Part shown: positions 14,528 through 17,215 of the stretch, one piece after another
How positions within the stretch are numbered: position 1 is the first letter of the stretch
Layout of the letters: each line of letters opens with the position of its first letter
From: Streptomyces sp. SN-593
GTDB taxonomy: Bacteria > Actinomycetota > Actinomycetes > Streptomycetales > Streptomycetaceae
Length of the DNA: 64,000 bases
Direction of reading: 5' to 3'
Assembly: GCF_016756395.1 (NCBI RefSeq)
Contig: NZ_AP018365.1
Span: 6,514,001 to 6,578,000, forward strand
The notes under the pieces: model-generated
Database searches by the model: none
Seen by the model: only the letters and a program-made list of their open reading frames with translations
Told to the model about the DNA's origin: nothing
Translations under genes and position numbers: made by a program

Positions 14528-15190
14528 ATGGGACGCCCGCACCGCATCGTGCTCATCCGGCACGGAGAGTCCCAGGGCAACGAGGACGACACCATCTACG
14601 AGCGGGTGCCGGACCACGCCCTGGAGTTGACCGCCAACGGCCGCCGTCAGGCCGCCCGCGCGGGGGGCCGCCTGCGCGAGGTCTTCGGCGGGGAGCGGGT
14701 CCAGGCGTTCGTCTCCCCCTACCGCCGCACCTGGCACACCTACGAGGAACTCGGCCTGGACCCGGCGCTGGCCCAGGCCCGCGAGGAGCCCCGGCTGCGC
14801 GAGCAGGACTGGGGGAACTGGCAGGACCAGGAGGACATCCAGCGCCAGCGCAAGGCACGCGACGCGTACGGCCACTTCTTCTACCGCTTCGCGATGGGGG
14901 AGAGCGGCGCCGACGTCCACGACCGGGTGGGGGCGTTCCTCGAGACCCTCTACCGCGCCTTCGACAAGCCGGACTTCCCGCCGAACGTGCTGCTGGTCAC
15001 GCACGGGCTGACGATGCGGCTGTTCTGCATGCGCTGGTTCCACTGGACGGTCGAGGAGTTCGAGACGCTGTCCAACCCGTCCAACGCCGAGACCCGGATG
15101 CTTCTGCTGCAACCCTCCGGCCGCTACATCCTGGACCGGCCGTTCGAGCGCTGGGGCACCCCGTGCCCGCCCGGCGGCGGCTTGCAGTGA
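14528..15190 (+). CDS. Histidine phosphatase family protein (phosphoglycerate mutase-like)
   Basis: 220 residues. The open frame runs further upstream, but ATG 14528 begins exactly at the family N-terminus (RIVLIRHGESQGN, with the RHG phosphohistidine motif at about residue 11). Other active-site positions are the arginine in SPYRRTWHT and the second histidine in LLVTHGLTMRLF near residue 160. Proteins of this branch are broad-specificity phosphatases rather than glycolytic mutases. It is a single gene followed by a small hairpin. Confidence 0.9.
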   Translation: MGRPHRIVLIRHGESQGNEDDTIYERVPDHALELTANGRRQAARAGGRLREVFGGERVQAFVSPYRRTWHTYEELGLDPALAQAREEPRLREQDWGNWQDQEDIQRQRKARDAYGHFFYRFAMGESGADVHDRVGAFLETLYRAFDKPDFPPNVLLVTHGLTMRLFCMRWFHWTVEEFETLSNPSNAETRMLLLQPSGRYILDRPFERWGTPCPPGGGLQ

Positions 15191-15194
15191 CCTC

Positions 15195-15212
15195 GGGGGC
15201 GGCTCGGCCCCC
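15195..15212 (+). terminator. Small G/C hairpin after histidine phosphatase gene
   Basis: GGGGGC pairs with GCCCCC around a 6-nt loop, 4 nt after the stop codon. Confidence 0.45.
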
Positions 15213-15315
15213 ATTCCGGGCGCCCCACCCCCCCCCGCATCCCGCAGGTGACGGGTGCGCGGTCCGGTGGTGAGCCGACCCGTAGAACTCCCTGGGCGCC
15301 GATCGGGCGGATCAG

Positions 15316-15321
15316 TACGAT
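15316..15321 (+). promoter_or_regulatory. -10-like TACGAT before the 8-codon leader
   Basis: TACGAT lies 7 nt before ATG 15329, not at leaderless spacing from the main ATG at 15352. Confidence 0.5.
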
Positions 15322-15328
15322 GCGTCGG

Positions 15329-15355
15329 ATGACTTCCGAGGTTCCGACACCATGA
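15329..15355 (+). CDS. Possible 8-residue leader peptide upstream of ADP-ribosylglycohydrolase
   Basis: ATG 15329 opens a frame reading MTSEVPTP and stopping at TGA 15353-15355. That stop overlaps the main gene's ATG (15352-15354) as ATGA, the arrangement of translationally coupled genes. The spacing from TACGAT suggests that a leaderless mRNA would begin at this ATG. The first 11 bases (ATGACTTCCGA) are identical to the first 11 bases of the main gene, so a short duplication is an alternative origin. The family is unknown and the idea rests on arrangement only. Confidence 0.4.
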   Translation: MTSEVPTP

Positions 15356-16443
15356 CTTCCGATCCTGATTCCGCGCCGGGCCTGCCGGCCGGTCCGGTCC
15401 TGCCCTCCTCCCACGCCGTTCCCCGCTCCGGCGCCGTTCCCCGACCTCCTGGCGGCCACCGCTCCGCCGCCGGGCCCGATCCTGAGCCCGACCGTCGGCC
15501 CGGGGCTGGCCTCGACCGCGCCTCCGACCGGGTCCCAGCCTTTGACCAGGACGCCGACGCCGATCGGCTGTCGCGCGCCAGGGCCAGCCTGCGCGGCCTC
15601 GCCGTCGGCGACGCGCTCGGCTCGCAGTTCTTCGTCCCGGCCCACTACCCCGCACTCCAGAGCGGCGAACTTCCGCCCGGCCCGTGGGCGTGGACGGACG
15701 ACACGGAGATGGCCTGCTCGGTTCTGGCGGTGCTCGCGGCCCACGGCCGGATCGACCAGGACGCGCTCGCGTGGTCCTTCGCGGAGCACCACGACTTCGA
15801 CCGGGGCTACGGCCCCGCCGTCAACCGGATGCTGCGGCTGATCCGGCAGGAGGGCGGCGACTGGCGCGAACTGGCCGCCGGACTGTTCAACGGACAGGGC
15901 TCCTGGGGCAACGGGGCCGCGATGCGGATCGCCCCCCTGGGCGCCTGGTACGCCGGAGACCCCGAGCGGGCCGCCCACCAGGCCGAGATCTCCGCCCACA
16001 CCACCCACCGGCACCAGGAGGCCGTCGCCGGGGCGAGGGCGGTCGCCGCCGCCACCGCACTGGTCGCCGGCCCCGCGGGCCCCGGGACCCCGGACGCGCT
16101 CCTGGGCGCGGTGCTCGACCTCGTGCCCCGCAGCGCGGTGCACGCGGGCATCCGCCGCGCCCGCGACATGCTGGACTACGACGACGTGGCGACCGTCGCG
16201 GCGGTACTCGGCTGCGGCCGCCACACCAGTGCCCAGGACACGGTGCCCTTCGCCCTGTGGGCCGCCGTACGCCACCTCGACGACTACGAGCAGGCGTTCT
16301 GGACCACCGCGCGCGCCGGCGGCGACGTGGACACCAACTGCGCCATCGTCGGCGGCGTCGTGGCCGCCCGCCCCGGTGGGGAGCCTCCCACCGCCTGGAC
16401 GCGACGTACCGAACCGCTGCCGCAGTGGGCCGGTGTGTCCTGA
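15352..16443 (+). CDS. ADP-ribosylglycohydrolase family protein (DraG-like)
   Basis: 363 residues. After about 60 disordered Pro/Ala/Gly-rich residues the catalytic domain starts at RARASLRGLAVGDALGSQF. Metal-binding motifs are WTDDTEMA (residues near 113), HDFDRGYGP, GSWGNGAAMRIAPLG and the C-terminal ARAGGDVDTNCAIVGG. These bind two magnesium ions in enzymes that remove ADP-ribose from proteins or small molecules. The ATG overlaps the stop of a possible 8-codon leader. There is no obvious ADP-ribosyltransferase partner nearby. Confidence 0.9.
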   Translation: MTSDPDSAPGLPAGPVLPSSHAVPRSGAVPRPPGGHRSAAGPDPEPDRRPGAGLDRASDRVPAFDQDADADRLSRARASLRGLAVGDALGSQFFVPAHYPALQSGELPPGPWAWTDDTEMACSVLAVLAAHGRIDQDALAWSFAEHHDFDRGYGPAVNRMLRLIRQEGGDWRELAAGLFNGQGSWGNGAAMRIAPLGAWYAGDPERAAHQAEISAHTTHRHQEAVAGARAVAAATALVAGPAGPGTPDALLGAVLDLVPRSAVHAGIRRARDMLDYDDVATVAAVLGCGRHTSAQDTVPFALWAAVRHLDDYEQAFWTTARAGGDVDTNCAIVGGVVAARPGGEPPTAWTRRTEPLPQWAGVS

Positions 16444-16528: not shown

Positions 16529-17215
16529 ATGCCGTACGTACCACCCACCCACACCGTCGAGCGTTCGATGCGCGCCACCCTCGGCGTCCGTACCGTCGCT
16601 GGTGTGGACGAGGTGGGGCGCGGCGCGTGGGCCGGACCGGTCACCGTGTGCGCGGCAGTCACCGGGCTGCGCCGGCCGCCCGAGGGGCTGACCGACTCCA
16701 AGCTCATCACCCCCAAGCGCCGGACGAAGCTGGCCGCTCTCCTCGCCGACTGGGTGACGTCCTACGCGCTCGGCCACGCGTCGCCCGAGGAGATCGACGC
16801 ACTCGGCATGACCGCGGCGCTGCGGCTCGCGGCGGGACGCGCCCTGGAGGCGCTGCCCGAGCGGCCGGACGCGGTCATCCTGGACGGCAAGCACAACTAC
16901 CTCGGCGGCCCGTGGAAGGTGCGGACCGTCATCAAGGGCGACCAGTCATGCGTCGCGGTGGCCGCCGCGTCGGTGATCGCCAAGGTGCGGCGTGACAGCG
17001 CGATGGCCGAACTCGGAGCGGAGCACGTTCCGTTCGCGTTCGCGGACAACGCGGGCTATCCGTCACCCGTGCACCGCGCGGCACTCGAGGAACTGGGCCC
17101 GACCGCCCACCACCGGCTGTCCTGGTCCTACCTGGACACCATGCCGCGGTGGCAGCACCTCAAGAAGGTGCGGGACGACGCCGACACAGGGGAACAACTC
17201 GGTTTCGATTTCTGA
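16529..17215 (+). CDS. rnhB: Ribonuclease HII
   Basis: 228 residues. The signature [18 protein letters not shown] near residue 25 carries the Asp-Glu pair, and [11 protein letters not shown] near residue 115 carries the next catalytic aspartate. The enzyme cuts the RNA strand of RNA-DNA hybrids and single misincorporated ribonucleotides. The C-terminus [19 protein letters not shown] is typical of the actinobacterial form. Confidence 0.95.

Follow-up and report, generated by a model that had tools for sequence, protein, structure and literature searches.

Coupled leaderless small ORFs have been described in mycobacteria. In Mycobacterium tuberculosis, those with an RTGA overlap are reported at 23 of 220 sites, compared with 32 of 1,000 random sites (Shell et al. 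2015, PMC4633059). A further study of M. tuberculosis reports pervasive translation of leaderless short ORFs, most of which are described as showing no signs of selection (PMC9094748). Leaderless genes of Streptomyces are reported with a TAnnnT element 4-9 nt from the RNA start (PMC4895711, PMC8079986). In S. coelicolor they are defined by a 5'-UTR under 9 nt (PMC4895711). In S. lividans the distance from the -10 to the RNA start has a reported mean of 6.3 nt (range 4-9), and the most frequent -10 bases of leaderless genes are A2 (94.5%) and T6 (97.4%) (PMC8079986). Two other described systems are termination-reinitiation at ATGA gene pairs (Huber et al. 2019, PMC6728339) and the S. lividans attenuators leuL and trpL (PMC8079986).

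Here we analyze the start of an ADP-ribosylglycohydrolase gene in a stretch of 64,000 nucleotides from Streptomyces sp. SN-593, which we call the window. The main features of the junction upstream of this gene are listed in Table 1. Like the mycobacterial small ORFs as reported, the mini-ORF of the window has a predicted 5'-end AUG, lies within 5-50 codons, overlaps the gene through RTGA and, within one clade, keeps its architecture but not its peptide (PMC4633059). Unlike them, it is limited to three genomes of one group and has an SD-like site, and it is predicted from sequence, whereas transcript starts and ribosome profiles were measured in the mycobacterial system (PMC4633059). Similarly, the ATGA overlap and a possible SD in the upstream frame are shared with the ATGA pairs, which are described as annotated gene pairs and not as eight-codon leaders (PMC6728339). 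As with leuL and trpL, a short leaderless peptide ORF would precede the gene; unlike those attenuators as described, the junction has no regulatory amino-acid run, terminator or spacer, and its stop overlaps the gene start (PMC8079986). In particular, we found no run of regulatory codons in the three peptides MTSEVPTP, MKAKVPTP and MRPEVPTR, no terminator-like site in a scan of positions 15100-15500, and, at E values up to 1, no match to Rfam in positions 14900-15700. Among the titles and abstracts listed by literature searches on the enzyme and on leaderless and mini-ORF topics, none dealt with this junction.

Table 1. Features of the junction and of the neighbouring genes, in coordinates of the window.
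Feature	Position	Strand	Evidence
Candidate -10 hexamer TACGAT (TAnnnT)	15316..15321	+	Sequence read
Mini-ORF MTSEVPTP-stop, frame ATGACTTCCGAGGTTCCGACACCATGA	15329..15355	+	Same geometry in relatives L004, L005
Longer mini-ORF form MRRMTSEVPTP-stop	15320..15355	+	In-frame ATG at the same place in L004, L005
GAGGT, SD-like site of the main ATG, 9 nt gap	15338..15342	+	Duplex energy, alignment
Invariant 14-base block TCAGTACGATGCGT	15312..15325	+	Ungapped comparison of the three junction-sharing genomes
ADP-ribosylglycohydrolase (ARH/DraG superfamily) gene, 363 aa	15352..16443	+	PF03747
Histidine phosphatase gene, scanned part	14597..15190	+	PF00300, E 5.8e-28
RNase HII gene, downstream	16529..17215	+	PF01351, E 1.4e-33

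The initial annotation had described TACGAT seven bases before an ATG that opens an eight-codon ORF, with a stop overlapping the main start as ATGA. Direct reading of the sequence confirmed every one of these positions: the seven bases are GCGTCGG, the mini-ORF starts at ATG 15329-15331, and its stop TGA (15353-15355) sits within the main-start ATGA (15352-15355). A second in-frame ATG, at 15320, overlaps the last two bases of TACGAT and extends the ORF to 11 codons. The annotation had also noted that leader and gene begin alike. Indeed, the same run of 11 bases (ATGACTTCCGA) opens at 15329 and at 15352, and the twelfth differs; this identity holds in the window, and neither of the two relatives with the junction has it. 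We therefore rejected a 23-nt duplication as the general cause of the repeat. No TTGAC-like -35 was seen at 16-18 nt from TACGAT, and a two-hexamer promoter scan of 15100-15500 found none. An imperfect palindrome, ACGATGCGT, lies within the 14-base block around TACGAT, and the block may double as -10 and operator.

We compared the junction across 35 genomes of the genus, including that of the window (G000), each with a match to the enzyme gene. The genus would correspond to Actinacidiphila of GTDB, and not to Streptomyces itself. The promoter table covered 34 genomes and left out G022, which has a divergent orthologue (60% identical) with, by eye, CATGAT 8 nt before ATGA. In 31 of the 34, we found TTGACC, exactly 17 nt, CAGAGT (CAAAGT once) and 9-10 nt before the main ATG. 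The search pattern demanded TTGACC, an (A/G)AGT-type -10 and ATGA, and allowed a spacing of 16-18, so that 17 is an outcome. Outside the genus, this promoter also precedes the gene in six neighbouring genera, represented by nine genomes (G039, G040, G041, G046, G049, G050, G058, G060 and G066). In the genus g9, taken to be Streptomyces itself, TAGAGT precedes the ATG in all 20 sampled genomes, at 8 nt in 10 and at 9 nt in 10; none of the 20 has TTGAC at -35 or an ATG mini-ORF ending in the main ATGA. Given the position of the -10, the 4-9 nt rule of S. lividans leads us to expect that the genes of these relatives should be leaderless or carry few 5' bases. The canonical 31 look near-leaderless, with a likely RNA start close to their own ATG: to judge by their sequence, they agree with the leaderless Streptomyces genes and with a 5'-UTR under 9 nt, while all that the window has near the ATG is a weak GAGGTT, at a distance of 8 nt, and the TAnnnT of its clade lies too far upstream for a leaderless main ATG (PMC4895711, PMC8079986). 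In 18 of 27 canonical relatives (L006-L032), GTGAGTTT followed after 2 or 3 nt by GCACA lies just 5' of the -35. This element upstream of TTGACC exceeds the needs of a promoter and is possibly a regulator site.

The initial annotation had counted conservation of the ATGA overlap as support for its reading, and loss of the mini-ORF in close relatives as evidence against it. The overlap says little, as it is also present in all 31 canonical genomes, where the search pattern demanded it. We attribute it to the N-terminus of the enzyme because residue 2 is mostly Thr (30 of 34 proteins). The second expectation is largely borne out, since 31 of the 34 orthologues compared carry the near-ATG promoter instead. 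Moreover, among the 31 there are 24 with an ATG mini-ORF that ends in the main TGA. Its ATG lies 20 nt before that of the enzyme in 21 cases, where it overlaps the TG of the extended -10 (ATGYCA(G/A)AGT) and precedes any likely RNA start; in the remaining three, the ATG is further up. Nine of the 31 have a spacing of 19, with the mini-ORF frame broken, and one has no ATG at that place. Among these genomes, the arrangement is seen to arise by accident from the promoter sequence, and its frame is not kept. The ATGA overlap alone is therefore no evidence of coupling.

We estimated how often such a mini-ORF is expected by chance. An ATG mini-ORF of 3-20 codons ending in the main ATGA was found in 846 of 5,000 dinucleotide shuffles of the 160-nt intergenic stretch, so that the mini-ORF alone is ordinary. 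When TAnnnT was also asked for 5-8 nt before its ATG, only 7 of 5,000 shuffles had both. Within the window, 72 open frames with high GC3 and a length of 100 codons or more begin at ATGA. Three carry such a mini-ORF and only one, at 15352, also has TAnnnT 4-9 nt upstream. From these counts, the combination is unusual for a single gene and may be expected a few times per genome of several thousand genes.

The junction is common to three of the 35 genus genomes, namely those of the window, G026 and G033. A 63-nt query of 394 family genomes returned three matches, the window's own included. In genome_contigs, from which the records closest to the window may be missing, the exact pattern matched one record, from Actinacidiphila yanglinensis, presumably the same genome as G033. 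The pattern GTACGATGCGTN2-3GATGA occurs once in each of the three genomes and in none of three canonical sister genomes. In a midpoint-rooted tree of 29 of the 34, which left out five with a predicted protein below 290 aa (four short stretches and the truncated G029), the three form one group (support 99/91) nested among canonical genomes. Their junction thus counts as one evolutionary event only.

All three genomes share the geometry TACGAT-7-ATG-23-ATGA without indels, with the second ATG placed 32 nt upstream of the main one, a mini-ORF of eight codons (11 from the upper ATG) and a stop overlap of the RTGA type, read as ATGA. From 5' to 3', after the invariant 14-base block come two bases that vary, an invariant GATGA, a stretch of six with a single invariant base, and AGGTTCCGAC, again invariant; there is little conservation upstream. 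Comparison with other genomes had been proposed in the initial annotation, and it gives a divided answer: mini-ORF, ATGA and spacing are kept in the two closest relatives, and the peptide, the codons and the 11-base repeat are not. The mini-ORF frame lacks a coding-like GC3 (0.73, 0.81 and 0.63, compared with a GC2 of 0.78, 0.79 and 0.78). By a hand count (6 invariant of 13 columns), the three columns of the ATG would be invariant by chance at about 0.07. The absence of indels within the clade is expected at about 0.77, a hand estimate from tree branch lengths (about 0.23 for the clade, about 2.75 for the rest, with at least 3 frame changes elsewhere on the tree).

In the alignment, AGGTT of the clade lies opposite AGTTT of the canonical relatives, so that the last T of the -10 is now G, and GAGGT at 15338-15342 occupies the place of their CAGAGT. 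TTGACC is gone and bases were gained, from 5 in the alignment to about 12 when ACGATG is matched by eye. The three genomes have SD-like GAGG, GAAGG or AGAGG about 10 nt before the main ATG. The predicted anti-SD duplex amounts to -6.6 (window), -5.0 (L004) and -6.5 kcal/mol (L005), compared with -2.4 kcal/mol in two canonical genus relatives. These energies support an SD but do not prove it, because one near-leaderless g9 relative reached -6.0 kcal/mol in the sequence ahead of its ATG. At 9-10 nt, the gap falls at the long end of the 5-10 nt range that is called optimal, and it exceeds the mean of 6.37 reported for S. lividans (PMC8079986).

The initial annotation had read the junction as a control device: the RNA would start exactly at 15329, ribosomes would have no entry point other than the mini-ORF's 5' AUG, and termination-reinitiation would supply the enzyme. 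Part of this reading stands, in that TACGAT-7-ATG does fit a leaderless start, with a spacing inside the range reported for S. lividans (PMC8079986). Coupled leaderless small ORFs with RTGA are also reported as enriched in M. tuberculosis (PMC4633059). Consistent with it, the geometry is kept throughout the clade, with GATGA invariant amid variable bases, and the lack of such mini-ORFs in the 20 g9 genomes indicates that they are not a universal by-product. Re-initiation is, however, not required and not the sole route, because the SD-like site 10 nt before the main ATG of all three genomes would allow direct initiation. The 24 canonical relatives with an ATGA mini-ORF also count against it, as their promoter should exclude the mini-ORF from the RNA. 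Neither codons nor peptide are conserved, and the clade was expected to lack indels anyway. Finally, we saw no conserved or unusually stable hairpin that translation could open. The predicted hairpins of the three 45-nt leaders (-4.3, -6.3 and -4.1 kcal/mol) were equalled or beaten by 170, 118 and 162 of 200 shuffles, with folding z-scores of +1.03, +0.27 and +0.91. The GG of the SD is predicted to pair, weakly, in all three, with a partner in the window that differs from that in both relatives. A hairpin that hides the SD was thus rejected as a conserved switch: it is weak, has different partners and is no better than shuffles. Overall, nothing that we found shows that the mini-ORF controls the enzyme, and we regard obligatory re-initiation as improbable.

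The RNA might instead come from further upstream, or from read-through of the histidine phosphatase gene, with the mini-ORF, from 15320 or from an upstream GTG, as an ordinary short uORF. This would agree with the absence of a terminator-like site in 15100-15500, and the mini-ORF frame is open upstream for 138, 405 and 153 nt in the three genomes. That upstream frame is, however, neither conserved nor coding-like. Moreover, the TACGAT block is invariant whereas the intergenic length varies: between the histidine phosphatase gene and the main ATG there are 161 nt in the window, compared with 428 nt in G026 (L004 1085-1512). Such an upstream origin seems quite unlikely to us. A longer coding frame, of 137 aa from an ATG in G026 or from a GTG start in the window, was rejected, as it has no conservation and no coding-like GC3.

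Alternatively, the gene could still be near-leaderless, from a weakened -10 GAGGTT (15338-15343), and TACGAT and the mini-ORF would then lie upstream of the RNA and be meaningless. The 31 canonical relatives look near-leaderless, a similar ATG mini-ORF overlaps the -10 region in 21 of them, and A2 and T6 of the -10, the two prevailing bases in leaderless S. lividans genes, are kept. On the other hand, GAGGTT does not begin with T or C, TTGACC has been lost, and the invariant block contains a full TAnnnT in TACGAT. We consider this explanation unlikely.

We favour, with roughly even confidence, a recent displacement of the promoter in this lineage, in which the enzyme would be made by direct SD initiation and the mini-ORF would be a by-product and possible helper. 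The two putative promoter types with their distribution, the gain of an SD-like site and the shared geometry are read directly from the compared genomes; we infer the direction of change, the RNA starts and all translation steps. The ancestral gene, as suggested by the 31 relatives, would have been near-leaderless, with TTGACC-17-CAGAGT ending 9-10 nt before the ATG. The clade ancestor would have lost this promoter through a change of the last T of the -10 to G, which gave GAGG, GAAGG or AGAGG, through decay of TTGACC and through a gain of roughly 5 to 12 bases. The -10 would now be TACGAT, which lies 30 nt ahead of the main ATG. The RNA would start at 15328 (6 nt from TACGAT) or at 15329 (7 nt), one base before the mini-ORF ATG or on it. 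On the resulting leader of 23-24 nt, ribosomes would initiate the enzyme directly at the SD derived from the old -10. With an RNA start at precisely 15329, translation of the mini-ORF is probable: some ribosomes would enter at the 5' AUG, translate the eight codons and perhaps re-initiate at AUGA. Such re-initiation would be accessory, and the peptide would have no function of its own. The lack of a recognisable -35 for TACGAT speaks against promoter displacement. The old promoter may also still live, since GAGGTT or AAGGTT 8 nt before the main ATG keeps A2 and T6. A fuller version of promoter displacement, which we put forward tentatively and think rather doubtful, is that a leaderless gene has been caught becoming leadered in one small clade. 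A T-to-G change would have turned the dead -10 into an SD, a new -10 would have arisen about 30 nt upstream with its start landing on an AUG, and the coupled mini-ORF, which would add ribosomes, would have arisen in the same step.

As a device to control the enzyme, the mini-ORF would matter little, because coupled leaderless mini-ORFs are known from mycobacteria. The locus instead offers one orthologous gene in one genus with an apparently near-leaderless form (31 genomes) and a form with leader, SD-like site and mini-ORF (three genomes), and the changes between the two start forms are still readable in the sequence. It is thus a natural test of how a gene passes between leaderless and SD-led starts, and of whether promoter movement yields coupled mini-ORFs as a by-product.

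The enzyme matches the PF03747 (ADP_ribosyl_GH) profile with E 1.3e-54 and 186.3 bits, compared with a gathering cut-off of 26.2. Its score against the DraG equivalog TIGR02662 is 44.7 bits, below the curated cut-off of 337.05, and its nearest solved structures are those of ARH3. From gene order, we take SCO5809 of S. coelicolor to be its probable orthologue. SCO5809 is given as an ARH3-like protein among listed DraG homologues (PMC5087735). It is also reported to act in vitro on RNA ADP-ribosylated at phosphate ends, and belongs to the same superfamily as the window enzyme (PMC11833690). Two orthologues in the compared genomes look damaged. That of L032 (G029) is cut to 137 aa by an in-frame TAG and is likely a pseudogene or a sequencing error. 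That of G010:C135:89335-90220 lies in two adjacent pieces in different frames, from a frameshift or an assembly fault, in a genome listed with 7% contamination. The proteins also differ in the number of residues ahead of the conserved GLAVGDALG core: among the 31 canonical genus relatives, 24 have 19. The window enzyme has 81 (15352-15594), rich in Pro, Asp and Ala, and other long N-terminal forms occur in G023 (61) and G032 (55).
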